A stretch of 51,305 nt of DNA from the IMG/VR virus record IMGVR_UViG_3300030450_002582, positions 1-51,305 of that record. The stretch is one strand, 5' to 3'. Of this stretch, positions 6,401-29,453 are shown piece after piece. Under the pieces are notes generated by a model. It did no database searches and was not told the DNA's origin. It saw nothing but the letters and a program-made list of their open reading frames with translations. Numbering within the stretch: the stretch's first letter is position 1; the number at the start of each line of letters is the position of its first letter. Position numbers and translations under genes: made by a program. Source of the stretch: a virus.

Positions 6401-7140
6401 TGTCTAGAATCAAATCCAGCAACATCAGCAGAAGTAGAAGCTTTAATAATTTCTATATTAATATTTTCAAGAGATAATGGATTTTTTTTCTGAGTAATTG
6501 GATCAACAATACTTATTTTCCAAGAATATCCTTTTTGTAAATAATTATCAAGAGCTGAAGTAGTCATTTTAACTAATTTTAAAGCTTGTCCAGTTGGGTC
6601 AAGTGAAGCACCTACTAATAATGGTTTTTTTATTGTATTTTCATAATCACTTAAATAAGGATCTTTTTCAGCTCTTTTTTCCCAAGATTGAACTTTATTT
6701 AAAATATATCTTATTTTACCAGCATCCCATTTTTCTGAATTATTTAAACCAGATAATTGCAAAGCTCCTTTTCTACTAAAAGTTGATTGACCATAAGCTT
6801 CTTGAAAAAGGCCTTGTATAAAATCAAGTCTATTGCTTACAAAATCATTAGGAACAATAAATACACTAGAATTATTTAAATGTTCAATACTTTTATTAAA
6901 AAAATGAGAAAATAATTTTTTATGTTCTAAAAATCTTTTACCTTCATTTATTATTTGCTGTTGAATAAATTTTTTATCACTTTTTTTAACAGCTTTTTTT
7001 AATTCTTTTTTTAAATTTGGTCTGTTATCAAAAGGATATTCAATTATGCGAGATATTCCGCTTTCTAAATTAACTTCTAATTCAGATCTTGCTTCTTTTG
7101 AAAGCTTAGCTGCTAATTTTTTATCATCACAAAAACTCAT
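3451..7140 (-). CDS. Giant virion-associated / ejection-type protein (1229 aa)
   Basis: Last gene of the late block. I place the start at ATG 7140, which overlaps the upstream TGA as ATGA and has AAAGGA upstream; a TTG at 7146 would add two residues. The N-terminal 1000 residues are Lys/Asn/Glu-rich and mainly helical, with no motif I recognise. The C-terminal 200 residues hold several hydrophobic stretches (roughly residues 1080-1110, 1125-1150 and 1180-1200) that could insert in a membrane. Its size, terminal hydrophobic segments and coupling to the putative virion RNA polymerase suggest an internal virion protein delivered with the genome, comparable in role to T7 gp15/gp16. This is inference from context, not homology. 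Confidence 0.75.
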   Translation of the reverse strand: MSFCDDKKLAAKLSKEARSELEVNLESGISRIIEYPFDNRPNLKKELKKAVKKSDKKFIQQQIINEGKRFLEHKKLFSHFFNKSIEHLNNSSVFIVPNDFVSNRLDFIQGLFQEAYGQSTFSRKGALQLSGLNNSEKWDAGKIRYILNKVQSWEKRAEKDPYLSDYENTIKKPLLVGASLDPTGQALKLVKMTTSALDNYLQKGYSWKISIVDPITQKKNPLSLENINIEIIKASTSADVAGFDSRQNKQLAEQFSEELLHDEVRNIISRDIPTDPKQFIKWRNSWEGKQFFGYIKSESERHEIGESDSKYVMIPLHKESNGQKILRNYRKSQLSEGSISVDPSELENAFLVYRIPDNMNNFLKNIKNNKSITKELLEKDLLKNEIEEGFYTAQEHRVYKYETIANTDMPKRKYANWSKGVDYNGKIYDPPDAWMPGMWKAIDMQREWNELFYEKVLNVETQKINEELNTFLKGINKKLINSGWNKKDIENLIDTINLMGGMQFNLIKDSQGNFATSNSFVKKASRWNYGHVKFDNPIYQSMMDEALNSINKSYLPEIEAQLATDNFIIKSNESSLAEKAEALDSITILESKKKYYESIVENMENLLYGENSTDQDRKQMFLSSKILATKSRTLFTDNKLRRKDRSVHSEYVDQAFRANELTKLKLELFKTVLSLQHNQPLVNYLVDQVKVASGGADIEAGFMNLNYSDQRISDILSKYISDITPEKVKQIGLIIRGYLSAANLGVWTAVTNNTQRLNKIINYGWKKTWEAMDAVKNGIDGFTASEIREQVEETGVLHPGNAFIDMLSMNINMQVGTEWKEALAPIRDVASLWKATTLDSWLNRSNSLDNLIKRASSQVSGEKVQLEEIKRIKTELYNIVNEPTKNNLKDKKRLEKRLKDLRLGLTQSGINRLINWKLQWFPLGLKNKMFTMAGTEEQMRLEVAFQGLKEAKEMGLINTEKKNWKYTDSPEAVEMARLYVYTNLFGFTQVMNPKMFRGAVGGKAFLWRQYDYNQVILEYEMFRSAAMSPEWAAKYGEGASMGALIAARLPFQIGKNIIRAGTQTMRAMGMSKEQVSQLQKTMKLNPELDDKNLQRATLLMMTRGMASIASFILYTQWAPYTILREGQLLIGSMVGKNKINQRALMGFGSPLVTKTLMIATLISAIIKAIDGDDTDDFIEDVLRELPFSVELTSLFLWLYDFSGNAIKGVRPYLPSPIKEVAQSIDNYID

Positions 7141-10100
7141 GGGCAATCCTTTAATAGTTGTTCAATAGTTTTATCATTAATATCTTCATATCTTGATTGA
7201 GATTTTAAAGTTATTCTCTCGTTTGAAGCTTCCCTTAAATTAGGGCCAAATCTATTCATAAACTCAGTATAAACTCCTTGATGCATTAACGGCATTGGTA
7301 AAAGTTTTTCTACATCACGATTTCTTGAAACATTATTTTTACCATCTAATGTTAAAACACCTCTTAAAAATCTTAAAGTAGAATAAGCTTTCTGTTCTTC
7401 TGACATTTTATCCCAAGAAGGTAATCCTTTTTTCTTATCTCCTTTAAATTTCCATTTTTCTATATATTTAATTAATTCTTCTTGATATGGGTAACCAGAT
7501 GACGTAATAAGACTTTTTGTTTTGTCTTGATGGCTTACAGCATCCATCATTATATTATAAAATTCACGAGTAGATTCATTAATAAACCTTCTAGCAACTT
7601 CTTTATCTTTAGAAAATTCTTTTGTTTCTGGATACCATCTTTGAGTTTCTTTTTGTATCGTATATAAATCTTTTTGAGTTTGGACAATTCCTCTTGTAAT
7701 CCTATTTGGATGATAACCTAATGGATGATTATGTACTTTATCATTTGGATTTAAAGATTCATAATCTAATAATGATTGATGAGGTATAGACAATAATTGC
7801 TCTAATGGAGTATTTTTATTATTAAATATTATTTTATCAATTTCCATTGTATCTTTATATAAACGACTTCTTTCTCCATATCTTAATCTTCTACCATTTG
7901 CTTTATTTCTTATTATCTCACCTTGCTCCACTCCAGACATATTTGTCATTTCATGCATATCTTTACTTAATGCAAACATACTTTCTATGTCTTGAGAATT
8001 ATTATCTACATTACTAACTCCTCTTCTTGCTTGATTATGCATTAATTCTTTTCTAATTAACGAAGTCATTGTACTAACTTGTTTTAACCCTATTGGAGAT
8101 CCATTTTCTTGAGTAAACATTTTAGGAATAACAAACTTATATCCATTATATCCCCAATCTGCTAATAAAAATTCTTTTGCATTATCTACAGCTGATTGTA
8201 ATAATATATGTAATTGTTTAATTGGAGTTGTTTTTAAATATTTATCCCCAGATTCCCATTTAGATCCATCTTTATGCACTAATGTTCCCATTTTAGCTTT
8301 ATCAAGCATTTCTTGAGTAATGTCATCATTTAATTGAGCATAATTCATTATTTCAGTTTCTTTATCTGGATTTTTAGGAACAATTGTTTGCCCTCCAACT
8401 TCTGCCTTAAATCCTTTAAAATACATATCCTCTAAAAAACTTACTGAGTTCATAAGTATTCCTTGAGAATTTATACCTTTACCTAATTTGCCAGATATTG
8501 TATACATATCTGCTTTTTTAGTTAATTTATATTTTTTATCTTTTTTCTTAAAATATTCTAAACGAACAAAGCTGTCCATATTTTCAAATGCTTTTTTAAT
8601 GCTATCGGATTGCATTGCTTTAATAATGCTTTTGTCTTGATAGTTATCTCCAAAATAGGGTGCTAGTAAAAATCCATTATCACCATCGTGGTCAGCTTGC
8701 ATTTTACCTACAATAGATTCTGGATGCAGCCATGCTACTGCACCATGCCCCTTAGGCATCACTTTTTCTATTTTTGCTAGAAATACAGCGCTTGGAGCAT
8801 AAACTGGCCACCTACCTACCATTAAATATTCTTTCCTAGATCTTAATGCTTCATTAATATTATTAATTAATTCATTTCCAGTCCCATCTACATTTAATAA
8901 ATTTTGTAAAAATCTTAACATTGTTACATCATCTGCACTAATAACAACACCATCTTCTTTCTTAACTATATTTCTTGCTAAATCTGATTTTAATACTGGA
9001 TAACTTCCAAGACCCCTTCTTCTACCTCCATAAGAATTTTCTTTTAACATTCTGTTTTTAATAGATTCAGACATTCCAGTTATAATATGTGGATGCATAA
9101 ATCCATCTGAAATCATTTGACCAGGAGAAGGTTCTAATAATCTATCAACTTCACTCATTATAGAAAGACCATCAGATTTCATTTGACCCATTAAAGATCT
9201 CATAGTTTGAGAATTATTTCTTGTACTAAATAAAACATCCATATTCATTTTTGCAATAGCATTCATTTTAGTAGAAAATAAATTTCTAAGTTTATCAAAT
9301 TCTGGATTATGTAAATGAGATAACCAAGACCATGGGAATGCTGCACTATTGTGACCTTGTTGTTTAGGTATTTTAACTATACGCCTAGATTCTTCTGGTA
9401 AAGTAAGTATATCAGTTGATATTCTATTATTTAATTTAAATGACCCACTACCTCCATCTGGTTCTTTTGCTTCATCTAAAGTTCCAAACATTGTTATTCT
9501 ATTGTCTTCTGAATCAAATATTCTTATGTTGCCATTAACATTTGCAGTATATACAATTACATTATCGTTTTCATCTGTAATATAAATATCTTCTTCTGGT
9601 ACAAACTCATTATGTTTTAAAGCTAAATAATGAGTACCTTCTATTTCTTGAGTGCCTTCTTTATAATGTTTATTACCAAACTCATCATTTTTACTTATAA
9701 ATCTAATTCTTGTTTTTATTTCTCTTAATTTAGAAGAATTTGGAGAATTAGGAACTCTACCAATAGCTTCTGCAGTTTGGTCTAGGTATTCACTTTCAAC
9801 CCACAATGAACCATCTGAATGATTTTTATTTTCTAATCCACCAACATAAGAAGACAATGGTTGTTTTTTAGTAGCTGAAGTGCTATTTGGAATGCCTTTA
9901 GAAACAAATACTTTAGATTGGTCTACAATTTTAATTGTATAATCACCAGTTCCTATTGCTACTATACCATCACCATCATCTATAGCTAATCTTCTACTAT
10001 GATGAGATGCAAGAGGAGATCTCATTAAATAATCACGACCTCTCCATCTTTTTAATACTTCATGCGATAAAATATGTTGAGCTGCTGAATATTTATTACC

Positions 10101-13100
10101 TTTCGATATTTCATTTTTAATTGATTCTAAAATTTCCTTAGACATTTCATCTGTTAAGTTTCCAATGCTTATTTCATAATCTAAATAATCTCTAATACTT
10201 TGGTCATCAGATGCTACATCCATTATATCTTGACTAGCTTTAGCAATAACAAATGAAGGATTATTACTTCCAGATTTTACACCCACTACTGTTCTAGCAA
10301 ATCCATCTTGATCTGCATATTGAGAAAACTTTTTATCCCAATTTCTTACTAATGCTCCACTAAGTTCTGTGTAAGAAGGCTTTGAATAAAAAGATCCCTT
10401 CTCTTCACCTTTAAAAACATCAACAATATCTTTTAAATATATTCTACTATATTGAAAATATCCAAAATTCCAATCATAAGAATCATTATCGTAATCAAGG
10501 AAAGATACACCAGTAGTTCTTGGTAAATCTTTATTATTTCTTATGTCTTTACCATATTTAGGATGACCTCCTATTTTTGGTATAAGATTTTTAGAGTCTT
10601 TATTACTAATTTTTTTACCATCTTCAGTTAAATTAGCATACCAAAAAGAAGGTTTATTTACGGAATCTTGTCTATTAATTGGTTGATTTCTTACCCAAAA
10701 ATTCTTAACCATATTATTATCATTAATAGTTTCTGGTGTGTATTTATATTTTTTATTAAGAAAACCTAAGAAAGAATCATAATCATTTATGGAAACTTGA
10801 TCCATTAATTCAGCTGTTTGTTTTTGATCTAAAAATCCTTTTTCACTTGTAGATTCTAAAAATTTAAAAAACTTATCACCTACAAAGTCATAAGTATCAA
10901 ATGTCATATTGTTAGAAATTTCTTCAACATCGCTTATATCAGATATAGATAATCCTTCACGACTAATATCATGGCTGTCTTCAGACCCTTGATTGTCAAG
11001 AGCGTTAGATATATTTGAAACAACATTAAGGTCTGATATTTGAGCTTTTATTCTTCTACTTTTTATTCCACCAAGACCCATTAAGTCTATAATTTTTAAA
11101 GAATTATTATTACTTTTCATTTTACTAGCAATTGATGGATCTCTTTCAACAGCCCATTCATTTAATAATCTTTTAAGGGATTTTCTTTTTTCTAAATCTT
11201 CTATTACATTTAAGGAACGACTCATTGGGGGAACAAAATCTGCAATGTCAATTCCATATTGATCTTTAATAACTTTAAAAGCCCCATCTAAATATTGAAA
11301 TGCCTTAGACGGTTCCATATAATTGTCTATAACTTTTGGCAATCTAGATGTGTTTTCTATTATTTGTTCATTTATATCAGAAGAAACTTGATCTAATGGT
11401 GGTTCATTAATCCAAAATCTCATTTTATCTGGATAATAAATATTGCCATCTTTATCTGTTGCGGGTTGAGATGATACTCCATATTTAACAAATCCTTGTT
11501 TTACCCAAAAATCTTCTGAACCTGTTTTTGCTATAATTTCTATTTTGTCTCTATTTTTAGCTTTAAATAAATCTTTAAAAGCATTTACTATCTCAGTCCC
11601 AACCCCCTTATTCCTTAATTCTTCAGCAATTATAATAGTCCCAATTCTATGTGTAAATTCTGGGCCTGGGCCAGCTCTTTTTATTGTAACACCTTCCATT
11701 TTACTAAATTTTTCTATTTTCATTTCAGCTTCCATTTGAGGACTTACTTTAGGAGTCTTTGTAGGAGCTTTAGTTTTATCAGTAGTTTTTGGAGTGTCTT
11801 TTTCTTTTTTAATGCCTAATTCTTTTTCTAGTTTTAATATTGCTCTGTCAATAGATTCTAAGTTACCCTTATTTTTAGCAATAACTTTTCTTTGAGCCTT
11901 TAACCCTTTAAGTTTATTTCTTTTTTTAACTAAAGGATCTATGTCTTTTTTAACTGTTGATGGAGTTGGTTCTATAATTTTTTCTTCTTTAATTTTTTTT
12001 CTTTGTTCTTTCTCTTTTTTTCTTATCTTATTTGCTTTTTCAACAAAGTTTTCCTTAGTTATTCCTCTTTGAAGTAACATTGTTTTTACTTCTTCAATTG
12101 TTCCTTTAATTGTTCTAGATAAACCAGGCAACACATTACCAGTCTCTTCGTCTGTAATTCTATATTGATTATTATCATCTTTATAAATAAAATAATTACC
12201 TTCTGGATCCCAATCAAAATTAATATTTTTACCAGAAACACTTTTTAATTCATATTTACCTTTTGATAGTAAATTTACTTTCTTTTCCGAGTATCCTTTT
12301 TTATGTACAAGTTTTTTATCTGTTTTTTCTGCTTTAAGCTCTTTAATCGCATTTTCCATGTCTTCTATTATCAGACTTCTCACACTGTACCAAATTTTGC
12401 CTTTGCTTTCTATTTTTTCTCGCTTTTTTTGCCATTCCAATTCATTTTCCAAATGCTTTAAAGGGTTTTTTTCAAATTCTTTTAAATTCTTTTTATTTGC
12501 TTGTCTGCTTAACGACTGATGTGCAATTTGAGCTTCTTCTAATATATTATCTTCTGTTACTTCACCGCTTTTTAATTCATCTTTATACAAATCCCTAAAA
12601 TCTTCAATCAAATATTCTTTGGTTAGTTTAGCAGCATTAACAAGTTCATTTTTGTATTGTTTAACAATTGGAGATTCTGTTTCTATTGTAGATTCTGTAG
12701 TGGGTGATTCTTCTTTTCTAATAAATTTTTGAGTTTGTTGTTTTGCTTTAAACTCAGCAATGGCATCTTTTATTTCATTTATATTAAGAGTTGTTCCTCG
12801 GCTTTTACCCTCTTTCTTTTCTAAATCATACCAGCTCTGTAAATCTTTTTCCATGTATGCCAAAGGGTCTTTATCATATTCTTTTAATTGTTTTCCTAGG
12901 ACTCTTTTATAATTTTCTAACTGAGATTCTGTTTCTATCGTAGGATCAGTTTTTGATGGCATTACGCCTTTTTGCTTATCAATTGCTTGCTCAGTCTGTT
13001 TATCAATTTCTCTTTCAATTTGTTGGTCAACTTGTTTTTCAATAGACTTATCAACTTCACCAAAAACATGCCTATCTAATGAAGATTGAATTTGATTATT

Positions 13101-15329
13101 AATTGCATTATCTATATTAATATTGAATGTACTAGATAAATAATTTTTAGTAGACGTAGAAGTTGCTGATTCTCCAAGATTTTCAGATATTTCTGATTCA
13201 TATGCTTGAATTACACTATCTAATAAAGACTTATCTGTAATACTAATTTTTCTATTTTGTTTTTTAGTATTGCCTTTTGCTTTTTTACTTTCAATAGATA
13301 TTTTATTATCTAATATTGCTTGTATAATATTTGGATTATCTCCAAAAACTTTTAATAACTCTGGACTTAAAGATTCAACAGTTCCAATTAAATAATCATT
13401 TACGTCATTTAAAACATTATTATCTATTTTATTAATCTCATTTTGCCCAATACTTTTTATAGCTTCAGAAAATTTTTCAGCGGGCGTTGCCATGCCATAT
13501 GTATCTTGTTGTTTAATAAGAGAGGCTAATCGAGATTTAGTATCTTTAGTCCTATCAACATTAACTTTAACATCCATAAATGGATTTATTAATTCTCTAA
13601 AATAATTTTCAGCATTTAACAATGCATTAGTTTCTATTACTGGAGAATCCAATAACATAGACTCATTATCAAATCTCGCATTAGGAACTCCAGTTTCAAT
13701 ACCATAATTATCATTTAATATTCTATTCGCTTTATTGTCAAATTTATTCCATTTAAATGCTTGATGAACATAACCAGCAGTTGTTATTCCAGCTCCCATT
13801 AATGCTCCACCTACTACACTTTCATGCATTTCAGCTGGGTCAACTAAGGGATGAGAAGATGGATCTAATAATATAGAAGCTAAATTAGTTGTACCTTCAT
13901 CTTTATACCCAGCTTCACTCATGACTTGCCCACCATACTGAACATATTCTTGAAAACCTTCAGCAACTGGATCTCTTAATGGTCTGATAATATATCCACT
14001 TAATTTACCAATTTGTGTATTTTTTAAATTTCTTAAAGCTTGAACTCTCTCAGGTGTAGCAATATTTTTTGTATATAAATTTCTTAAAAATTTAGATTTA
14101 GCTGATGCATTTACAGCTGGGGCAAATTTTTTCATAATTCTACTCATTCCCCATCCTTCAGTAGCAACTGTAAATGCTATTTGAGTAGCACTAGAATAAG
14201 CAGCGTTAGATTTAGCAAGTTCTTCATCTCCAGTTTTATCTAAAGTCCATTGATATGCTTCATTATAAGCTCCAGTAGCAACTAATGGTACATGGCCAGC
14301 AGTTCCAATAAACGCAGCAGCTCCAGGCCCCAAAAATGATAAAGCAGCCAGAGATCCACCCATTATTGCAATTGATGGGACCATTGAAAAAACTGTATCA
14401 AGAAAATATTCGGGAGATTTAAATGACGTAAACCAATCAACTGGTTTTTGAGAAACATATTGACTATAGGCTTGAAATCTTAAATCTTTTTCTTGTCTTT
14501 TTTGTATTTTTTCAATATGATTTATTGAAGTTTCTTCAGCCCATTCATTTATTTCTATTAATGTATTTAAAAAACCTTGATTAACTTCTTTACGCAATCC
14601 TTTATTTTCTCTTTCTTGTTGCTCTTCTTTCCAATTATTTAATTCTATACCATATTTTTTAAGAGTTTCAAAATAATCTGGATTTTGTTCTCTTGCATAT
14701 GCATAATCTTCTTTTGTTGCTGGGCCAATAAAATCATCACCTGCAAATCCATAATCTTCAGAATCCTTATCCCAAACAAAATCTGGCCTTTTTGTTTTTT
14801 CAATTTTAATTTGATCTTCAGCCATTTTATTATAATTATCGCTAAAGAAATCTGATAATTGAGTTAATTTTTCATCATCTTTTTTTATAGCATCAATAAG
14901 CAATTCTGAAACAGTTGCTATTGCTTTAGGGACTCCACCACTATAATCTTCCATCATAGAACCAGAAAGATTCCATCTTTCAGAAATATTAAAATCTAAA
15001 TTATGGTAAGCTGATTTTTCTTTTAAAGGAGATAGGTCTGCAACATTATCTATAAGGTATTTTGCTCTCTCGGATCTATCTTGAAAATAATTAGCACCTT
15101 CATCTGTCCATTTGAAAGGAAATTGAGTTTCCATTTCATTAGTCTCTGGATTTGGTACTCTTTCATATTGAGTAATATCATATTCTCCAGCTTTCTCCCA
15201 GAGAATGGGCATATTTTTTTCTATATCATCCGCTAATTCATCTAATCCCTTCATTCCTTCTGGGATTATGGGTTCTTCGTCTAGGTTATCTGTTGAAGCT
15301 AGCCAAGCTGGTGCTAATAATTGAGGCAT
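7137..15329 (-). CDS. Giant multi-domain virion protein, putative two-barrel RNA polymerase (2730 aa)
   Basis: Order of features: acidic N-terminus; Gly/Ala-rich hydrophobic stretch at about residues 310-395, membrane-like; charged coiled-coil region at about 750-790; two ~50-residue repeats near 813-863 and 950-1003; a GNAT-like domain at about 1195-1310 (R-N-K-G-V-G, then F-W-V-K-Q-G-F); a long beta-rich region; then G-R-W-P (R near 2173), L-H-P (near 2202) and ADHDGDN (DxDGD at 2213-2217), and AVDNAK near 2378. The R-x-P / H-P / DxDGD series matches, from memory, the catalytic barrel of RNA polymerase beta' (NRAP, LHP, NADFDGD), with Phe replaced by His. Those aspartates chelate the catalytic magnesium. 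crAss-like phages package a comparable giant enzyme. It lies among ejection-protein genes, with AAGGA before its ATG. The beta-like barrel is not clearly identified; K-I-P-K-Q-Q-G-H-N-S near 1982 is a candidate. Confidence 0.72.
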   Translation of the reverse strand: MPQLLAPAWLASTDNLDEEPIIPEGMKGLDELADDIEKNMPILWEKAGEYDITQYERVPNPETNEMETQFPFKWTDEGANYFQDRSERAKYLIDNVADLSPLKEKSAYHNLDFNISERWNLSGSMMEDYSGGVPKAIATVSELLIDAIKKDDEKLTQLSDFFSDNYNKMAEDQIKIEKTKRPDFVWDKDSEDYGFAGDDFIGPATKEDYAYAREQNPDYFETLKKYGIELNNWKEEQQERENKGLRKEVNQGFLNTLIEINEWAEETSINHIEKIQKRQEKDLRFQAYSQYVSQKPVDWFTSFKSPEYFLDTVFSMVPSIAIMGGSLAALSFLGPGAAAFIGTAGHVPLVATGAYNEAYQWTLDKTGDEELAKSNAAYSSATQIAFTVATEGWGMSRIMKKFAPAVNASAKSKFLRNLYTKNIATPERVQALRNLKNTQIGKLSGYIIRPLRDPVAEGFQEYVQYGGQVMSEAGYKDEGTTNLASILLDPSSHPLVDPAEMHESVVGGALMGAGITTAGYVHQAFKWNKFDNKANRILNDNYGIETGVPNARFDNESMLLDSPVIETNALLNAENYFRELINPFMDVKVNVDRTKDTKSRLASLIKQQDTYGMATPAEKFSEAIKSIGQNEINKIDNNVLNDVNDYLIGTVESLSPELLKVFGDNPNIIQAILDNKISIESKKAKGNTKKQNRKISITDKSLLDSVIQAYESEISENLGESATSTSTKNYLSSTFNINIDNAINNQIQSSLDRHVFGEVDKSIEKQVDQQIEREIDKQTEQAIDKQKGVMPSKTDPTIETESQLENYKRVLGKQLKEYDKDPLAYMEKDLQSWYDLEKKEGKSRGTTLNINEIKDAIAEFKAKQQTQKFIRKEESPTTESTIETESPIVKQYKNELVNAAKLTKEYLIEDFRDLYKDELKSGEVTEDNILEEAQIAHQSLSRQANKKNLKEFEKNPLKHLENELEWQKKREKIESKGKIWYSVRSLIIEDMENAIKELKAEKTDKKLVHKKGYSEKKVNLLSKGKYELKSVSGKNINFDWDPEGNYFIYKDDNNQYRITDEETGNVLPGLSRTIKGTIEEVKTMLLQRGITKENFVEKANKIRKKEKEQRKKIKEEKIIEPTPSTVKKDIDPLVKKRNKLKGLKAQRKVIAKNKGNLESIDRAILKLEKELGIKKEKDTPKTTDKTKAPTKTPKVSPQMEAEMKIEKFSKMEGVTIKRAGPGPEFTHRIGTIIIAEELRNKGVGTEIVNAFKDLFKAKNRDKIEIIAKTGSEDFWVKQGFVKYGVSSQPATDKDGNIYYPDKMRFWINEPPLDQVSSDINEQIIENTSRLPKVIDNYMEPSKAFQYLDGAFKVIKDQYGIDIADFVPPMSRSLNVIEDLEKRKSLKRLLNEWAVERDPSIASKMKSNNNSLKIIDLMGLGGIKSRRIKAQISDLNVVSNISNALDNQGSEDSHDISREGLSISDISDVEEISNNMTFDTYDFVGDKFFKFLESTSEKGFLDQKQTAELMDQVSINDYDSFLGFLNKKYKYTPETINDNNMVKNFWVRNQPINRQDSVNKPSFWYANLTEDGKKISNKDSKNLIPKIGGHPKYGKDIRNNKDLPRTTGVSFLDYDNDSYDWNFGYFQYSRIYLKDIVDVFKGEEKGSFYSKPSYTELSGALVRNWDKKFSQYADQDGFARTVVGVKSGSNNPSFVIAKASQDIMDVASDDQSIRDYLDYEISIGNLTDEMSKEILESIKNEISKGNKYSAAQHILSHEVLKRWRGRDYLMRSPLASHHSRRLAIDDGDGIVAIGTGDYTIKIVDQSKVFVSKGIPNSTSATKKQPLSSYVGGLENKNHSDGSLWVESEYLDQTAEAIGRVPNSPNSSKLREIKTRIRFISKNDEFGNKHYKEGTQEIEGTHYLALKHNEFVPEEDIYITDENDNVIVYTANVNGNIRIFDSEDNRITMFGTLDEAKEPDGGSGSFKLNNRISTDILTLPEESRRIVKIPKQQGHNSAAFPWSWLSHLHNPEFDKLRNLFSTKMNAIAKMNMDVLFSTRNNSQTMRSLMGQMKSDGLSIMSEVDRLLEPSPGQMISDGFMHPHIITGMSESIKNRMLKENSYGGRRRGLGSYPVLKSDLARNIVKKEDGVVISADDVTMLRFLQNLLNVDGTGNELINNINEALRSRKEYLMVGRWPVYAPSAVFLAKIEKVMPKGHGAVAWLHPESIVGKMQADHDGDNGFLLAPYFGDNYQDKSIIKAMQSDSIKKAFENMDSFVRLEYFKKKDKKYKLTKKADMYTISGKLGKGINSQGILMNSVSFLEDMYFKGFKAEVGGQTIVPKNPDKETEIMNYAQLNDDITQEMLDKAKMGTLVHKDGSKWESGDKYLKTTPIKQLHILLQSAVDNAKEFLLADWGYNGYKFVIPKMFTQENGSPIGLKQVSTMTSLIRKELMHNQARRGVSNVDNNSQDIESMFALSKDMHEMTNMSGVEQGEIIRNKANGRRLRYGERSRLYKDTMEIDKIIFNNKNTPLEQLLSIPHQSLLDYESLNPNDKVHNHPLGYHPNRITRGIVQTQKDLYTIQKETQRWYPETKEFSKDKEVARRFINESTREFYNIMMDAVSHQDKTKSLITSSGYPYQEELIKYIEKWKFKGDKKKGLPSWDKMSEEQKAYSTLRFLRGVLTLDGKNNVSRNRDVEKLLPMPLMHQGVYTEFMNRFGPNLREASNERITLKSQSRYEDINDKTIEQLLKDCP

Positions 15330-15374: not shown

Positions 15375-17135
15375 TTATTCTAGCCATTGTGTACTCTCTC
15401 CAGTTATACCACTTTTATCATCTATGCCATATTCTTTTCCAGCTTTTAAAATTCGGTCGTAACCATAATCCGGCCCAAATTTTTGCATAGCTTCTATATC
15501 AGCATCATATAATCTACCATATAATTTTAAAAATTGTTGGTATGCGTCTTGTGCATTTTTATCTTTGTCACTTCCCCAACTATAACCTTCAAAATCTAAT
15601 TCTACACTTGCGTTTGATAACATTTTATATAATTCATCAGCTTTTGAAACTTTATCCGCAGTAGATAAATTCTTATTCTTTATATTTTCTATATCTCGAA
15701 GTAACTTTTTTATTTTATTTTTTTCTCTATCATCAAAAGGATCTAAATTACTTGTTGAAACAAACTTATTTAATTCATTAAATACTGCATTTTTATACTC
15801 AATCATATTTGATTTGCTATCTAAACTAAACTTAGAAAATTTATTAGCTACATCAAAATCTACATTATCATAATCACTAGCTAATGGAAAAGTTATATTC
15901 TTCCCTTTTGAATCTCTACCATAATCCCTTAAAGTTTCAGCTATTGTTTCTATTTTTCCTTCAAGAGAATTTTCTAAATCACTTTTTGATTTTCTAAAAG
16001 CTACTTCTTTTGATTTAGCTTCAGCTTTTAAACCTCTTTCATACTCACTAACGTCTCTTAAATTAGCAGATGTAAATTTATTATATTGTTTTATACCTTC
16101 TTTAATAAGTTTAAGATTATCATCTCTTATTCCTTGATCTATGTATGATTTAGATTCTTCTAGGAGAACTGAAGATTCCCTTGAAAACGGAACTATTCTT
16201 TCTACATCTGATTCTATGGCATCAATTGAATTTAAAATAGTAAAAGCTGTTTGAAAATTATTTGCTTCTTCTTCCATTTTATCTAAATCTTTTTGAATAA
16301 CATTATTATCTATAAATTGACTTTTTTCCCATAAATCTTCTCTTGTATCACTAAGAACTTGAATAGACAATTCACCAAATTGATCTGGATTTTTTTTAAT
16401 ATCATCTAATTCTTGAGCAAAATCAAAAAGACTCTTGTCATATTCATTTTGTGCATTAGCATAGCTTATTCTTGTTTCAACCATTCCTATATAAGAATCA
16501 AGTTTGTCTAAAGCATCTGAATTTACAAAATCATTTTTTTCTTTTCTTAAATATTGTGATAATGTTCCAAATTTATTTATAAAATCTTGATTATTAACAT
16601 CAATTAAAAAGTTTCCTTCTTTATCTTTTGGGGTATAAAAACTCGCTAAATCATTTTTTGCATTTCCTAAATCACCAAGAACACCTTCTAAATATGGAAC
16701 ATAACTAGCAAATTGTTCATCTTTTTGAAGGACTTCTTGCATTGTGCCTGTAAATCCCCCAACTCTCGTTTCCCCATATTTTTCTGTCTGAGCATCTATT
16801 ACTTTCCCATGATGATTTTCTAAAGAATTAATGTAAGATTCATAAACAAGAAGCTCTGATGGATCAATTTTATTAAGATTGCCTTTAAGTGATGTAATTT
16901 CTTCTTGAATTTTACTAGGGTCATCTAATGTTAAAGTAGATTGAACATTGATTTCAGCAGCCTTTAATAAAGATCTTTTATTATCTATATCTTCTTGTCT
17001 TGCTTGAGTAAAAAAATCATTTACTGCATTTCTAGTAACTCCACTTACAAGTTGTTGCAAAGCTACATCTATGTAACTTTCGCCCATATTTAATTCACCA
17101 AATTCTCTAGAAGATATTCCTTTATAATTTGCCAT
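15375..17135 (-). CDS. Helical structural / internal virion protein (586 aa)
   Basis: Soluble, strongly charged protein with long stretches of helical, coiled-coil character (many E/K/D/L/I) and no membrane segment or recognisable enzyme motif. It is directly upstream in the transcript of the 2730-residue gene and follows two other probable internal virion proteins. Podoviruses place several such core or ejection proteins together after the tail genes. I do not recognise a family; ejected core protein is the reasonable guess from position and composition. Confidence 0.7.
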   Translation of the reverse strand: MANYKGISSREFGELNMGESYIDVALQQLVSGVTRNAVNDFFTQARQEDIDNKRSLLKAAEINVQSTLTLDDPSKIQEEITSLKGNLNKIDPSELLVYESYINSLENHHGKVIDAQTEKYGETRVGGFTGTMQEVLQKDEQFASYVPYLEGVLGDLGNAKNDLASFYTPKDKEGNFLIDVNNQDFINKFGTLSQYLRKEKNDFVNSDALDKLDSYIGMVETRISYANAQNEYDKSLFDFAQELDDIKKNPDQFGELSIQVLSDTREDLWEKSQFIDNNVIQKDLDKMEEEANNFQTAFTILNSIDAIESDVERIVPFSRESSVLLEESKSYIDQGIRDDNLKLIKEGIKQYNKFTSANLRDVSEYERGLKAEAKSKEVAFRKSKSDLENSLEGKIETIAETLRDYGRDSKGKNITFPLASDYDNVDFDVANKFSKFSLDSKSNMIEYKNAVFNELNKFVSTSNLDPFDDREKNKIKKLLRDIENIKNKNLSTADKVSKADELYKMLSNASVELDFEGYSWGSDKDKNAQDAYQQFLKLYGRLYDADIEAMQKFGPDYGYDRILKAGKEYGIDDKSGITGESTQWLE

Positions 17136-19352: not shown

Positions 19353-22295
19353 TTAGCTACTACTTGTTTCAGTTACCACAGCTGCTGTTGTAATAGGTCT
19401 ATACCTAATTGCAATACTAATTATTTCTAAATAAGTTTCAGTAGTTCCAGCACTTGCAATTCTTAAGGAAATACTTCTGCATTTAATTGGAATAGAATCA
19501 GATGGTGTTATTTTTAATATATTAACATTGTCTTTATTGCTACTTCCACTTAAAGCTTGGTCTTCTACTAATACATTAGATCCACTATTAGGATAATCAT
19601 TGCCATCTTTTTCATACATTACATCAATAGTGTCACTTGTACTATCTGTAATATATTCTATATCAATTTCATATATTTTTTTAAATATATTAGGCATTCC
19701 AAAATCATCATCTTTTGTTATTAATATAAATGCTGAATTATTAGTTGAAGTAAAACTTAATTTTCTTAAATCTTTATTATTAGATGACCCAGTAGCGGGA
19801 TCTGTATATATTAATAAACCTCCATAGGGAAGAATAGAAGCGTCTCCAGCATCTTGAATCTCATTGCCAATAAAATTTAACATATTACTTTGACTTGTGC
19901 TTGATCCACCTGGAATTAACCAATAAGGATTAACAGTAAGTGGATAACCATTGCTCCATGATTGAGTGTCTATATCGAACATTTTCATTTTAGTAGGTGC
20001 TTTAACATTATCAGAAAGTATAATTTTATTAGAACTACTATCCCATCCAATACCAGGCCCTCTATCATCGCTAGATCCAGCTGAATAAAAATCTGTCCAA
20101 TCTTCATAGCTAATTTTTTGATTAGATATATTTTTAGGTTGATTATTAACCATCATATATAAGCCACTTTTTGTTACCCAAAAAATACCTAAAGATGATT
20201 TTGTTATTCCCCAAGGCCCACTAACTCCTAATCCATCATATTTAGCAATTAATTTCCAAGAAGCTTCATTTGGATTAGATACGTCAATTAAATATAAAGC
20301 ATTCTTTTTAAAAGCAAATAAAACTCCATTAACATATTCTAAAGCAACAAATTCATCTCCATCATTACCAGCTATATTTAATCTATAAGAAGGTGGAAAA
20401 GTATCATATTTTCCAACCGGTGTATAAAATATTGCATCACCCATAGTCCTTGCTAATCCACTATCTGGATCAACATAACTAGCATTTGCAACAAATATTC
20501 TTTGACCAGCTACAACAGAAGCTTTATATCCATAACCTGCAGATTCACCAAAAGTTAAAGCATATTCATTTGCAGAATATCCATTAAGGTTTTCATAAGT
20601 TTCTACACCTAAAGATTTTATTTCATATTGCTTACTTTTAAGGGCTGTAAAATTTGTATCAGTCCATCCCATATTCTCACCACCAGTATCCGCATCTCTA
20701 GCAGTTTCCCAATCATCATAATCATCAATAGTAGTTAATCTAGTTCCCCCACCAACTGCTCCAGAATTATAATTAGTCCTATAATCTATATCCATTAATA
20801 ATGACCATGGAGCATCGTCATTTACTCTTCTCATATAAATACGACCACCAATAATTCTTTTATCAATATATGTATTATTTTCACTAAGATTACTAAGTCC
20901 AGACATATGTACTTTAGCATAAATAAGTCTTTCATCTCTGACTTCAAGATTCTTTCCTTCAAATTTAGTTATTAAAGATTCTTGATTTCCTTCATATATA
21001 AAACTTTGACCAAATTCATAATCATCTTCAACAAATAATCCACCATCAGCTTCCCCAGATGTAAAAACTTCTAAAAGGGCTCCATCACCTGGAAATGGAT
21101 ATATTTCATAAGATCTTCCATCCCAACTTACACTATTTGCTGATGTAGTAAGAACAGATTGTTCTTCATCAGCTACAGCTGTTATTTTCCAAACATCATT
21201 ATTTGACACATCATAAGCAACAAGCCATCTACTACCACTATTAGCAGCTGATACACCAGATGTCCATTCTTGGAATTGTTGTCCATCATCTGTGACAATC
21301 CATGTTCCCGACGCTGGGTCGTGATCTTGTACATATGGACATTCTACCCAAAAATTATTTGCATCAATTCTAATTAATAATTTATAAATACCATTATATC
21401 CACTAAAATCATCGTCACTAGATCCTGCGTTTATAATTCTTATCCATTTATGATCTGGATGATAAGTAGATCCATCACTACTAAATTTAAAATCTTCATC
21501 TATTAAACCATGAGATGTGTCTGTAATATTAATATTATGCAATCCTAAATTATAATCGAGGTAGCCATCACCAGAGGTAGTATCTGAAGCTTTTCCAATA
21601 TTATTTGCAACTCCACTTGTAAGAACTGGTTGCTTTCCAATTAAAGCAGTTGTACTTGATGAAGTAGCTCCGCTAGTTTGAGAAGAAGCTGATGGGCAAG
21701 TAGCAGATAGATTTAAAGTATGAAATCCAACAGTTGGTTTATTAAGAGTATTTGATGTAGAAATCCATTCCCTATCAAGCTCAACTCCTAATAATTTTTT
21801 CTTTGTATCTGTTCCTATTCTACCAAACCATTTAACAGTATTATTTGTATCAAAAGATGCATCAGCAACTCTAAGAGCTCCATCTGCATAATAAAACTCA
21901 GCTTGCATAGCAGTTCCACTTCCAAGATCAAGAATATTTTCTTGCATCATATGATCATCTTGGTCAGCTGCATCATTATATCCAAATAAATCTATTTGAC
22001 TATTTGATTTATCAGCAACACAAATATATTCACTCTCTCTTAAACTTAAAGTATTAACAGTATCAGAGTATGAATAATCTGATTTAAAAGAAAAAAGACC
22101 TCGACCTGGATATATTGTAGCTGAATGATCATCAACTCCTCTAAGGGAAGAAGGTTTAATTGTTCTTAAAGCTCCTCTTTCATCACACATTACTCCTTGA
22201 GCTTCAACAACTTCATTTTCTTTTATAAACTTAGAATTTACTTTTGTATTTACACCACCAGAAAAATCTCTATATATTTGATACCTTTTAGGCAT
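19353..22295 (-). CDS. Tail nozzle / stabilisation protein, P22 gp10-like (980 aa)
   Basis: The N-terminus (Y-R-D-F-S-G-G-V-N-T-K, then K-E-N-E-V-V-E-A-Q-G-V-M-C-D-E-R-G-A-L-R-T-I) is the signature seen in P22 gp10 / T7 gp12-type podoviral tail proteins, where the chain forms a beta-propeller-based nozzle. The rest is beta-rich with many S/G/D and W, consistent with that fold. At 980 residues it is longer than P22 gp10. It marks the virus as short-tailed and lies between the putative lysis cluster and the ejection proteins. Confidence 0.75.
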   Translation of the reverse strand: MPKRYQIYRDFSGGVNTKVNSKFIKENEVVEAQGVMCDERGALRTIKPSSLRGVDDHSATIYPGRGLFSFKSDYSYSDTVNTLSLRESEYICVADKSNSQIDLFGYNDAADQDDHMMQENILDLGSGTAMQAEFYYADGALRVADASFDTNNTVKWFGRIGTDTKKKLLGVELDREWISTSNTLNKPTVGFHTLNLSATCPSASSQTSGATSSSTTALIGKQPVLTSGVANNIGKASDTTSGDGYLDYNLGLHNINITDTSHGLIDEDFKFSSDGSTYHPDHKWIRIINAGSSDDDFSGYNGIYKLLIRIDANNFWVECPYVQDHDPASGTWIVTDDGQQFQEWTSGVSAANSGSRWLVAYDVSNNDVWKITAVADEEQSVLTTSANSVSWDGRSYEIYPFPGDGALLEVFTSGEADGGLFVEDDYEFGQSFIYEGNQESLITKFEGKNLEVRDERLIYAKVHMSGLSNLSENNTYIDKRIIGGRIYMRRVNDDAPWSLLMDIDYRTNYNSGAVGGGTRLTTIDDYDDWETARDADTGGENMGWTDTNFTALKSKQYEIKSLGVETYENLNGYSANEYALTFGESAGYGYKASVVAGQRIFVANASYVDPDSGLARTMGDAIFYTPVGKYDTFPPSYRLNIAGNDGDEFVALEYVNGVLFAFKKNALYLIDVSNPNEASWKLIAKYDGLGVSGPWGITKSSLGIFWVTKSGLYMMVNNQPKNISNQKISYEDWTDFYSAGSSDDRGPGIGWDSSSNKIILSDNVKAPTKMKMFDIDTQSWSNGYPLTVNPYWLIPGGSSTSQSNMLNFIGNEIQDAGDASILPYGGLLIYTDPATGSSNNKDLRKLSFTSTNNSAFILITKDDDFGMPNIFKKIYEIDIEYITDSTSDTIDVMYEKDGNDYPNSGSNVLVEDQALSGSSNKDNVNILKITPSDSIPIKCRSISLRIASAGTTETYLEIISIAIRYRPITTAAVVTETSSS

Positions 22296-25121: not shown

Positions 25122-28100
25122 CTATGAATGTTTACCTTTTCCATGATTGTAATTTTTTAATAATTCATCAGCCGATAGAGCTTTATTGTAAAGCCTAACT
25201 TCATCTATTAATCCTTCATATTTTTGATATAGAGTTCCACTTAATAACTTTGCTCCCATGCTTGGATCATAAGAAGCGTCAGATGTGAAAGAAGATTCCA
25301 ATGCTGAAATATCTTTTGTACTACCTGACTGAACACCATTGACGTAATGTTTGGCTTCACCAGCAGTTCTATCTACGACTAAGGCTACGTGTTGCCATAC
25401 TCCAGTAATAGCATTTGTTACACCATTAAATTCAACAGTTTCATCCCCATCATCAAAGGTAGTCCTTAACCTATCAGCACTATCATCAAAATGAAAATCA
25501 ACGCCTGTATGTGGTGTTGCAACTCCCTTGATATATAAAATCTGCTTTAAGGAATCTCCTACACCAAGATTGGGTTTAATCCATGCATCTATCGTAAAAT
25601 CAGCACTTCCTAACTGTATAGCTGGTGAATCAGGTGTTGGTATATATCCATCTCCATAAAACCTTATTCCATTTGCTATGGCAGTTTCATCTGCTAATGG
25701 AAACCCAACAGAATCTTTACCTGAAGTAAGACCTTCTGTTAATAAATAAGTAGCAGGAGAACCATTGACAGTTCCATTATTAGAACCTTTTAAGTCTGCC
25801 CAAGTCGTTGCTCCACTATTTCTCCAGTACCCTGTAAGATTAGCAGAAGAAGCATAGTTACCACTATTGGTTAAGGCATCTATTGGTACACCACTATTAT
25901 AGAGAGCTGTTATTTCAGAAGCCGTAAGGGCTTCATCCCAAACTGCGATTTCATCCATAAAACCTTTTAGCTCTTCGTAATTAGGTGAGTCTCCAAATGT
26001 GGTTATATCTGCCAATACCCCTGCATCAGTAATAGACCAATCTTCTGCCCCGTTTACATAAAACTTATATGAAGTATTGTCCTTCCAATATACAAGATGG
26101 TATAATGTATTAGCGGATATAACAGTATTGGATGTGTTCCAAGCACCATCAACAAGCCACTTAAAATTGTTACCATAATATCCACAATAAGCAAATAAAT
26201 TTGGATGTGTACCACCGATAATCATTCGGTATGTTGAGTCAATTTCATCAATCATCACCCAGCATGAAACAGTCATAGCCCCTGAAGTAGATGAAGCAGA
26301 TATAGTAGACCCAAGAGATATATAGTCATCTGATCCATCAAACAACATCTTCTCATTACCTCTCATTAATGCAGTTTGTGCTATATCTGATTCACCAGTT
26401 ACAAAAGTTGCTCCATCTATTGTACCATTATTGCCATTACCAGAACCATCGTATGCAGTTGAACCAGCACCTTCATTAAGCATCCATGCACCTTTTAGAT
26501 TAGATGCAGATACTCCTGTTGGTAATTGCATTTCTGGATTAGTGTATAATTCCTGAACTTGTGCTAAAGTTAAGGATGTATTAAAAGTACATAGATTAGA
26601 TATTTTACCATCAAAAAAAGCATTAATTGTGCTTGAACTTTGTCTATAGCAACCTATAGCAAAATCTGTATATGAAGTATCGGCAGTATAGCTTGTAGTT
26701 TCTGTATGCTTTAATACACCATCTACATATAGTTTTCTTGAACTATTGCTTTCAATTACATAACAAAAGTGATGCCAACCAGTTGTTAAACCTACATCTG
26801 TTCCATAATCTGATCCATGCTCTGAAACAGTATATGCACCAGCAGAACCTTCATAAGCTACTCTTATATAAGGAACACTACTTACTACATACATACCAGC
26901 TTTAAATCTTTCGGTACTTCCACCAGTATTATAAGATGAAAACATTTCTCCACTTGCAGTAAGGTCATCTGGTTTTGCCCACCAACTAACTGCCCCAGCC
27001 GAGCCAGATATACAATTTGCCACAGTTGAATCATCTATATCAATTTTATCATTTGTACCATCAAAGTTAAATGCTCTGCCAGAGTAAACTTTACCATAAT
27101 TAACTGGATCAGCTACACCTTTTGGTGAAGCATTATATGAAGTAGTTGTGGTAGCTCCTGTGACTACTCCTGTATTTGAGGTTACTTTCTGTACATTAAA
27201 GTTTTTAAATTTATAAATATCAATTCCCGAGTGACCAGCCCCCATTCTTAAAAAATAAGGAATAGAATAGCTAAGACTTGTTATACTACAATAGATAGTA
27301 AATGTTTGATATTCACTTGTTAATGATATATCAGTTGTGGGAATAACCTTACTACCAGAATCAAAAATTCTTAAAGTCTGACCACTTCCACTTCCATTGG
27401 TTGCAATTTTTGCTTCAAATTGAAATTTTGCTAAATCATTTACTGCGTACCCCAATGCAGTAGAAAAACCTAAATTAGCTAAATTCCCTGACTCCATTCC
27501 TTTATCGCTTCCAGAAACAACTGGAATTGTTAATGTTACTTCATCTCCACTTACAGAAACGATTTCTCTATCTGCTATTTTTGGTGAAAAATTGTTTAGA
27601 CTTACAAATGTATTGCTTCCCAATGTTTCGCCTGTTGCTGGTTGAACTAAATTATTAGTTTGAGTTCCTAAATCATACCAAGAGACTAAATTTGTAGATT
27701 CTGCAGATGTAAGATCAGAATAGCTTTTAAACATAATGCTTTGAATTTCCGATTGAGACAAAGCTCTTGAATGTAAAGAAACATTAGCTAATTTTCCTTC
27801 CCAAAAATCTCCACCTGTTTTATTTGTACCAATTAAAGGATTTGATGCAGTCGTATTTAATGATGAAACTCCCGAAGCATCCGCACTACCATCACTTACA
27901 GTTTCTAAAGCACCATCTAAGTATATTTTTAATGTACTACCAGCATCAAATACACCAGATACATGATGCCAATTCCCATCTGCAATATCAGTCGTGCCTC
28001 TTACATGTTGATCAGCAGAACCACTATCAACTCTTAATTGAAGCCTATTTGATGATGCATTTTGTTGTAGGTAAAAAGACCTTGTTGGGTCACTACCAGT

Positions 28101-29453
28101 ATCTCGTGCAAAAATATAAGCACCTTGTGATGTCGATGTATTAAACCAACAAGATATTGTAAAATCACCAGACACTCTTAATGATGCATCAGAGCCACAA
28201 TCTATATAGTCACTACTACCATCAAAGGACGTAGAGCCTGTACTTAATTGTACTGCATCCTTTGGATCAGCTTGATCTACAATTCTCGGTAAAAATGGAG
28301 AATTACCACCATAAGCTGAAGTATTTGTTGTAGCTCCTACTATTGAGCCATTGTTTGAACCTTTAGAATCCTCTACGATTGCAACTTCTTTTAAAGAAAG
28401 ATTGCTAAATGTAACATTTGAAGCACTCCTTCGATAAAGTTGTAAATATTTTGAATTTGTGTTTGCTGGAGTTATAGTTACTGTATTAGAACCAGCAGAA
28501 GGAGTTGATATTACACCTCCTTCGGCAGATGCTCCACCTTGAGATGATCCCCAATACCATCTTGGAGTATCCCCAGCTCCCCCAGAATTAATAACTGCTG
28601 TATAGGAAAATTGATAACTAACAGCAGTATTAGGAGAAGCTATGACTAAGTTTGTTGCACATCCTTCTGTTCCAGAACCATCTGTTTCTACAGTAAATCC
28701 TCTATTTGTACTAAAAGTATCCGTAAATGAATCAAATGGATATTCTGTACCATTGACTGCTCCAGTAATCAACTCACTTCCTGTAGTTGTACTATCTAAT
28801 GCCCACCAAGAAACAAGACTTGATTTATCTATGGTACTAAGATCAGCATAGTTTTTCCACATAACACCTTGAATCTCTGCTACTGATAAGGCTCTTGACC
28901 ATACTCCCATATTGCTCAGTTTACATTCTTTGTAAGATGTACTGCCAGTTGTAGTACCACCTATTGTATCTATTTTTGAATTTATAGAACTAAAGTCCCC
29001 ACTACCAGTTTCAGTTTCTTTTAGAACACCATTTACATACATCTTTACACTTGTGCCTTCTCTAACGAAAGCAAAATGATCCCATTGGTTCTCTATGGAA
29101 GTGTGATTACTAAATGTTACATAATCATCATCAACTCTAAAGAATATAGCAGATTCTTCGAAATATATGCAGTAACTAATATTATTTGATCCATTTGTCC
29201 AATCACTTACCCCTACTACTGCACCATCATCATCTACATCTATATTATTAAACCAAAAAGAATAAGTAGCATTCAGACCTAAGTCTATTTCAGATGTACT
29301 TATATAGTCATCGCTCCCATCAAAGGATGTATTACCAGCTAAGAATAAAGAACGATCTGTGCTTTTAAAATTGAAAAAGAGTTTAAGATTGTCTTTGACG
29401 TAGGTAAGGGCTTTTACAACACCCTTAGTTAAGGATATTCCTAATCCTAACAT
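25122..29453 (-). CDS. Large tail fibre / receptor-binding protein with five LamG-like domains (1443 aa)
   Basis: Five concanavalin/LamG-like jelly-roll domains begin near residues 41, 412, 793, 1036 and 1263. Each opens with F-D-G-S-[DS]-D-Y-I or a close variant. Each carries a W-x-H-[FVL] strand with [YL]-V-[ND]-G or Y-L-D-G and ends with a segment like G-K-[LI]-x-N, S-x-A-L-[ST]-x-x-E-I. Linkers after domains 1 and 2 look like carbohydrate-binding modules. LamG domains bind glycans, so host-surface attachment is the likely role. The first 40 residues would be the virion-attachment part. Repeated domains suggest growth by duplication. Confidence 0.8.
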   Translation of the reverse strand: MLGLGISLTKGVVKALTYVKDNLKLFFNFKSTDRSLFLAGNTSFDGSDDYISTSEIDLGLNATYSFWFNNIDVDDDGAVVGVSDWTNGSNNISYCIYFEESAIFFRVDDDYVTFSNHTSIENQWDHFAFVREGTSVKMYVNGVLKETETGSGDFSSINSKIDTIGGTTTGSTSYKECKLSNMGVWSRALSVAEIQGVMWKNYADLSTIDKSSLVSWWALDSTTTGSELITGAVNGTEYPFDSFTDTFSTNRGFTVETDGSGTEGCATNLVIASPNTAVSYQFSYTAVINSGGAGDTPRWYWGSSQGGASAEGGVISTPSAGSNTVTITPANTNSKYLQLYRRSASNVTFSNLSLKEVAIVEDSKGSNNGSIVGATTNTSAYGGNSPFLPRIVDQADPKDAVQLSTGSTSFDGSSDYIDCGSDASLRVSGDFTISCWFNTSTSQGAYIFARDTGSDPTRSFYLQQNASSNRLQLRVDSGSADQHVRGTTDIADGNWHHVSGVFDAGSTLKIYLDGALETVSDGSADASGVSSLNTTASNPLIGTNKTGGDFWEGKLANVSLHSRALSQSEIQSIMFKSYSDLTSAESTNLVSWYDLGTQTNNLVQPATGETLGSNTFVSLNNFSPKIADREIVSVSGDEVTLTIPVVSGSDKGMESGNLANLGFSTALGYAVNDLAKFQFEAKIATNGSGSGQTLRIFDSGSKVIPTTDISLTSEYQTFTIYCSITSLSYSIPYFLRMGAGHSGIDIYKFKNFNVQKVTSNTGVVTGATTTTSYNASPKGVADPVNYGKVYSGRAFNFDGTNDKIDIDDSTVANCISGSAGAVSWWAKPDDLTASGEMFSSYNTGGSTERFKAGMYVVSSVPYIRVAYEGSAGAYTVSEHGSDYGTDVGLTTGWHHFCYVIESNSSRKLYVDGVLKHTETTSYTADTSYTDFAIGCYRQSSSTINAFFDGKISNLCTFNTSLTLAQVQELYTNPEMQLPTGVSASNLKGAWMLNEGAGSTAYDGSGNGNNGTIDGATFVTGESDIAQTALMRGNEKMLFDGSDDYISLGSTISASSTSGAMTVSCWVMIDEIDSTYRMIIGGTHPNLFAYCGYYGNNFKWLVDGAWNTSNTVISANTLYHLVYWKDNTSYKFYVNGAEDWSITDAGVLADITTFGDSPNYEELKGFMDEIAVWDEALTASEITALYNSGVPIDALTNSGNYASSANLTGYWRNSGATTWADLKGSNNGTVNGSPATYLLTEGLTSGKDSVGFPLADETAIANGIRFYGDGYIPTPDSPAIQLGSADFTIDAWIKPNLGVGDSLKQILYIKGVATPHTGVDFHFDDSADRLRTTFDDGDETVEFNGVTNAITGVWQHVALVVDRTAGEAKHYVNGVQSGSTKDISALESSFTSDASYDPSMGAKLLSGTLYQKYEGLIDEVRLYNKALSADELLKNYNHGKGKHS

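Follow-up and report, generated by a model that had tools for sequence, protein, structure and literature searches.

In virions of the phage crAss001, three proteins associated with the RNA polymerase (RNAP), of 155-277 kDa, have been found by mass spectrometry, and they are thought to exit through the tail partly unfolded (PMC10172136). The virion RNAP of the crAss-like phage phi14:2 is known as a structure (PDB 6VR4), and for that phage MS/MS records list the RNAP and the giant proteins that flank it among the components of the virion. In the Thermus phage P23-45 the virion RNAP and the tape measure are one fused protein, and the pre-early genes are transcribed by this polymerase (PMC10770324); for jumbo phages a multisubunit virion form is described (PMC7598289). 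In phiKZ and AR9 the two-barrel core, related to cellular RNAP, is split over several subunits, and these phages exceed 200 kb. N4-like podoviruses also package and inject a giant virion RNAP, of about 3.5 kaa; it is a T7-type single-subunit enzyme, and its fold is different. Among viruses only a few have yielded structures of single-chain two-barrel polymerases, the RNAi enzymes being the other source.

Here we examine a giant protein encoded in a virus record of IMG/VR (51,305 bases), all of which is covered by the stretch analysed (hereafter the window). Like the crAss-like enzymes, it is a single chain of 2-3 kaa from a late block, with RxP, DxDxD and VDNAK in the same order and large putative particle proteins on either side. 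Unlike in them, its polymerase follows an ejection-like N-terminal part that includes a GNAT-like domain; it belongs to a family with DxDGD where the crAss-like proteins have DxDID or DxDVD, and it shares no BLAST-level similarity with them; the crAss-like genome is also larger (~100 kb, against a record of about 51 kb here). P23-45 gp96 (PDB 8H2M/8H2N) resembles it as a polymerase fused to a giant particle protein, and its DFDGD motif is comparable, the two being linked through a distant homologue described below. In gp96, however, the polymerase is N-terminal in a tape measure of 5002 aa, whereas that of the window is C-terminal; P23-45 is a long-tailed phage, and gp96 has no direct profile match to the family. 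With the jumbo phages the window protein would share the two-barrel core, in one chain rather than several; with the N4-like enzyme it shares giant size, but its predicted fold is two-barrel and not T7-type.

Relatives of the giant protein

Relatives were found in uncultured viral contigs only (L and G numbers below), and a search of 84,980 bacterial and archaeal genomes found no relative or RNAP. The nearest are L001 (69% identity), L003 (about 70%), L010 (63%), L028 (62%), L031 (59%) and L011 (58%), followed by L007 (50%), by L014, L024 and L029 (43-45%) and by L056 and L060 (31-34%). At the far end are L071 (23%, E 6e-13) and the group of L072, L059 and L042 (about 20%, E 1e-5 to 7e-5). Profile links to the distant members are strong and span the whole core rather than the motif alone (L056, 100% over 942 columns; L071, 98% over 657; L072, 96% over 536), whereas reversed controls reached probabilities of 0.1-1.2%. 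In a maximum-likelihood tree of the core, the window protein groups with L001 and L003 (support 100/100), and L056/L060, L071 and L072/L059 are successively more distant and long-branched, their exact order being uncertain.

The late gene block and the case for a particle protein

Both ends of the record hold plus-strand genes, including those for a D12 methyltransferase, a DnaB helicase and a PD-(D/E)XK nuclease, and between them, from 3451 to 42770, lies a single late block of minus-strand genes. In this block are the terminase (PHROG 38, E 8e-74), the portal (PHROG 156, E 5e-64), a weak capsid match, a fibre-like protein with a lectin domain and five matches of laminin-G type, a match to 'internal virion protein' and four smaller ORFs (214-586 aa each); the block also holds the giant ORF and a protein of 1231 aa (Table 1). 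Late-block synteny is kept among relatives with context, in which the RNAP gene again lies between structural genes, and the MPK..FSGG counterpart of the internal virion protein is present in G009, G008, G012, G014 and G010. The preliminary description of this DNA had reported the 2730-residue ORF at 7137-15329, omitting its strand, which is minus, and had placed it in a late series of ejection proteins; both the annotation of the block and the relatives bear out the late-gene series.

The stop codon of the RNAP gene overlaps the start codon of its downstream companion in the sequence ATGA (7137-7140, minus strand), which suggests coupled translation. The mechanical call of the companion ORF begins with a TTG at 7146 and is probably too long, the likely start being the ATG at 7140-7138. 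Elsewhere in the block, a 1443-aa protein (25122-29453, minus strand) has five laminin-G-3/concanavalin-like stretches and is likely a receptor-binding fibre. No family A DNA polymerase was found in the window, with a positive control, despite the DnaB helicase. A repeat search of the early region gave weak AT-rich matches only, and we therefore propose no promoter.

Table 1. Features of the giant protein, its gene neighbourhood and its relatives (window coordinates unless a contig is named)
Feature	Position	Strand	Basis
Giant ORF, 2730 aa: N-terminal ejection-like part, then predicted two-barrel RNAP	7137..15329	-	ATG start; IMG/VR relatives
Hydrophobic Gly/Ala-rich segment, residues 307-353; candidate membrane/channel segment	14271..14411	-	Hydropathy (KD) maximum 1.81
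GNAT acetyltransferase-like domain (C-terminal part), residues 1223-1284	11478..11663	-	Pfam PF13673, E 3.4e-4
Strongly conserved polymerase half, residues 1340-2730	7140..11312	-	Block identity to L001; alignments
Candidate beta-like barrel (DPBB-B), residues 1872-1980	9390..9716	-	Strand-rich in model; K1872, K1905 and K1955 invariant
Predicted beta'-like double-psi barrel (DPBB-A), residues 2127-2222	8664..8951	-	Model strands and preceding helix; Foldseek; crAss RNAP profile alignment
R2173-x-P2175	8805..8813	-	Invariant across the 16-sequence alignment; opposite R-I-P of crAss RNAPs
H2202-P2203	8721..8726	-	Invariant in 16 sequences
Predicted catalytic DxDGD, residues 2213-2217	8679..8693	-	Kept in every covering relative, x variable
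Proposed bridge helix, 33 residues, 2272-2304	8418..8516	-	Model helix 508-540; aligned to crAss RNAP
AVDNAK, residues 2380-2385, proposed trigger-helix region	8175..8192	-	VDNAK identical in phi14:2 RNAP and cr111_1
Downstream companion protein, about 1230 aa	3451..7146	-	Adjoins RNAP gene in near relatives; by profile also in distant L089 and L088
Upstream 586-aa protein, candidate ejection protein	15375..17135	-	Position; homologues 5' of RNAP gene in L001 and L003
Tail/internal virion protein; conserved late module begins here	19353..22295	-	PHROG 511 'internal virion protein', E 6e-8
Variable enzyme domains between N-terminal part and polymerase	Window 11478-11663; L001 residues 1063-1194 and 1415-1475; L010 residues 484-576	- (window)	
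Helicase-polymerase fusions	L072:1246-9789; L059:57-9062		

The two halves of the giant protein differ in conservation. Per block of 100 residues, identity to L001 is 51-86% from residue 1301 on (66-86% in most blocks) and 22-56% ahead of it; with the division set at about residue 1400, the C-terminal side has 62-86% and the N-terminal side 22-56%. The membrane-like Gly/Ala segment that the preliminary description had noticed near the N-terminus recurs at about the same place in four relatives with complete N-termini (L001, L003, L014 and G009), and the distant L087 and L093 have one at about residues 225-268. A GNAT-like domain precedes the polymerase in the window protein, L001, L003 and L014; the window match, at 21 bits, lies below the PF13673 cut-off of 23.6, while those of L001 and L003 lie above it.

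We regard the giant protein as a probable particle protein because of its place in the late block, its N-terminal hydrophobic segment, a downstream companion conserved to profile level, and precedent. A two-barrel polymerase could instead be made late, stay in the cell and, as a non-virion RNAP or a barrel polymerase of another type, transcribe or replicate phage nucleic acid there, and two-barrel RNAPs outside the virion do exist, in P23-45 (gp64; PMC10770324) and AR9. Here, however, the polymerase is fused to a part of some 1300 residues with conserved hydrophobic segments, and its gene sits among structural genes within one late block, also in relatives with context, in a layout similar to that of phi14:2, where mass spectrometry places the corresponding proteins in the virion. 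A purely intracellular enzyme is thus unlikely.

Conservation of the predicted active site

Motif positions were located by script: KIPKQ at 1986, AFPWS at 1997, GRWP at 2172 (R2173), LHPES at 2201 (H2202), DHDGD at 2213-2217 and AVDNAK at 2380. For GRWP, HP, DHDGD and AVDNAK these agree to within two residues with the positions given previously (AVDNAK having been put at about 2378). Given the length and composition of the protein, chance alone predicts 0.056 copies of DxDGD, so that the motif alone is weak evidence and conservation had to decide.

We therefore turned to an alignment of 16 sequences with 19-79% identity to the window protein. Every sequence that reaches the motif retains D2213, D2215, G2216 and D2217 (the fragment L024 stops just ahead of DxDGD), while the x of the motif varies among H, N, T, Q, F, Y and S; K1872, K1905, T1950, E1953, K1955, R2173, P2175, H2202, P2203 and G2208 are invariant. 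K1986 and K1989 of KIPK had been considered as the active-site lysines of the beta-like barrel, and this idea was dropped because L056 and L060 lack them, whereas K1872, K1905 and K1955 are invariant. Several sets of relatives were gathered with DNA patterns on GHGxVxWxHP, QADxDGDN or HP...G...[AG]DxDGD; these patterns contain the motifs, which were therefore partly selected for. L001, L003, L010, L011 and L012 (the last from the same contig as L007) were gathered with patterns elsewhere in the protein, and the site is kept in them nonetheless. Judged from these aligned sequences, conservation across relatives is what turns DxDGD into strong evidence for a polymerase site.

DxDGD is also a common calcium-loop pattern, and it could be an EF-hand-like loop or, given the chance expectation above, an accidental motif in an unrelated structural protein. 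The loop, DHDGDNGFLLAP, has no Gly at position 6 and no Glu at position 12, the order RxP...HP...DxDGD...VDNAK is conserved, and the predicted fold matches RNA polymerases; we consider a calcium loop or chance motif very improbable. A subtler alternative is that the protein is an ejection or internal virion protein in which the polymerase part is a dead relic, retained for structure or DNA binding, as its embedding in a giant particle-type protein might suggest. The residues that are best kept are, however, the catalytic ones: DxDGD, RxP and HP are still present in relatives of only 19% identity, with x differing among them, and conservation is much higher in the polymerase half than in the N-terminal one. 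A relic is accordingly quite unlikely, though less so than a calcium loop, and a working polymerase remains our preferred reading.

Predicted fold

An AlphaFold2 model of residues 1765-2530, built with the 16-sequence alignment, has a pLDDT of 73.3 and a pTM of 0.65. An earlier construct (residues 1455-2640, 11 closer sequences) reached a pLDDT of 55 and gave meaningless Foldseek matches; adding distant homologues and shortening the construct yielded the usable model. Searched with Foldseek against 350,542 PDB chains, this model had as its best match 6VR4 (E 2e-4, prob 0.99), the virion RNAP of phi14:2, the crAss-like phage that the preliminary description had named for comparison, and the other top matches were RNAP beta'/Rpb1 chains. 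All seven matches at E <= 1e-3 were RNA polymerases, as were all 50 matches listed, including those of phage AR9 and of archaea. Because TM-scores were low (0.27), with large rmsd, we regard the class of fold as supported but the arrangement of the domains as not settled. In BFVD, a set of predicted viral proteins, unnamed proteins came first among the matches listed (E 4e-32 to 1e-21) and crAss-like proteins next (E 3e-7 to 1e-3), including phi14:2 and the cr111_1 'putative RNA polymerase'.

The barrel strands of the model place the DxDxD loop in a beta'-like barrel, and Foldseek agrees; a fold of residues 2100-2300 other than a double-psi barrel, which would have counted against the preliminary description, was not obtained. 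The candidate beta-like barrel region is strand-rich, with parts at low confidence. After the catalytic barrel comes a confident helix at 2272-2304 (pLDDT about 91-94 over most of its length), then VDNAK, aligned with crAss RNAP, the bridge-helix and trigger-helix labels being assigned by analogy. From the model and its matches, residues from about 1450 to 2730 are very likely a single-chain RNA polymerase with a two-barrel fold.

Sequence links to known polymerases

No sequence-level match to a known RNAP was obtained by tblastn, Pfam, PHROGs, NCBIfam or a PDB profile search; the tblastn search, against 50,697 phages, included crAss-like genomes. A profile of the family was aligned by hhalign with a crAss core profile of eight sequences (phi14:2, PhiCrAssBcn21, cr111_1, cr107_1, p-crAssphage, Fpv1, cr4_1 and 'frurule') and scored 33.2, though at an hhalign probability of only 5%; 60 column-shuffled controls had a mean of 15.7 (sd 2.2, maximum 21.9). 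The preliminary description had also staked its reading on a hit to two-barrel RNAPs; the structure search gave such hits, and the profile score, at the edge of detection, exceeds all of its shuffled controls. The main alignment sets SAVDNAKEFL opposite AFVDNAKDPY, the VDNAK of phi14:2 RNAP lying at about residue 1611. A second, collinear local match sets VGRWPVY opposite GYRIPNQ and QADHDGD opposite GSDFDID; alone, this DxDxD region scored 23.2, against 23.7 for a control, the large virion protein gp078 of phi14:2, and we therefore count it for position only.

The more distant viral homologue L044 matches the family profile at 82%, and in the PDB it matches nothing but the virion RNAP of the P23-45 tape measure (two chains, E 0.13), over the region of DxDGD. 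Its polymerase-like DxDGD protein (L044:1173-3008, on a contig of 138,661 bases) is a possible bridge between the families. Direct comparison of the family with the single sequences of P23-45 gp96 and gp64 found nothing.

A T7/N4-type single-subunit RNAP was considered and set aside: the giant protein has no match to the T7-type RNA polymerase family in Pfam and has DxDGD and a predicted two-barrel fold instead. The unassigned ORFs of the genome are too small for a T7-type RNAP or are without match.

A lineage apart from the crAss-like phages

Conservation, structure prediction and profile alignment all support the beta'-like, two-barrel polymerase site proposed in the preliminary description, and its suspicion that a genome so little like the crAss-like ones might represent a separate lineage also holds. 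By the searches used, the Crassvirales hallmark genes examined (terminase, portal and capsid) are not crAss-like: the best terminase matches are to podovirus-like phages, the portal has weak matches to Aeromonas and Acidovorax phages (terminase and portal at about 23-29%), and the capsid search gave no match. Because the sequence relation lies at the edge of detection and these three proteins are not crAss-like, we do not file the giant protein as a crAss-like RNAP, although it would work like one; the predicted polymerase, a highly diverged relative of cellular RNAP, belongs to a separate, undescribed family. A literature search found no title or abstract describing such a family.

Proposed role and significance

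By analogy with the described systems, we infer the packaging, injection, template, promoter use and activity of the giant protein as follows. It would be made late and packed into the particle with its 586-aa upstream and 1231-aa downstream neighbours, the N-terminal ~1300 residues, with their hydrophobic segments and GNAT-like domain, serving as the packaging and ejection part. It would leave through the tail partly unfolded, with or ahead of the DNA, refold in the cell, and transcribe the early genes of the opposite (plus) strand before host transcription serves the phage. In the refolded enzyme, active-site lysines would come from the beta-like barrel (about 1870-1980), and metal would be bound by D2213, D2215 and D2217, three aspartates of the beta'-like double-psi barrel (about 2127-2222); the proposed bridge helix and then the trigger-helix region with VDNAK follow. 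Taken whole, this account of a polymerase that is packaged, injected and used for early transcription seems to us likely.

The domains between the N-terminal part and the polymerase vary: a cpYpsA SLOG domain is found in L001 (E 6e-25) and a GHKL ATPase domain in L010 (E 5e-12), and once injected such domains may act on the host as takeover modules. In the L072/L059 branch, a Dda/RecD2-like SF1 helicase lies ahead of the distant polymerase core in a chain of 2848-3002 aa. The chances seem to us evenly balanced that these proteins form an unrecognised superfamily of virion-packaged two-barrel RNAPs in non-Crassvirales phages of ~50 kb, one whose sequences bridge the crAss-like and P23-45 enzymes and whose members co-inject, within the one chain, interchangeable takeover modules (GNAT, SLOG, GHKL) or, on a single distant branch, a helicase of Dda/RecD type.

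The family adds at least 16 diverse sequences, from small phages, in which a minimal set of conserved residues stands out clearly, and it suggests that phages other than the crAss-like, jumbo and Thermus ones also package a cell-type RNAP in the particle. For the uncultured phages of this family, the prediction is that their early genes should be transcribed independently of the host RNAP.
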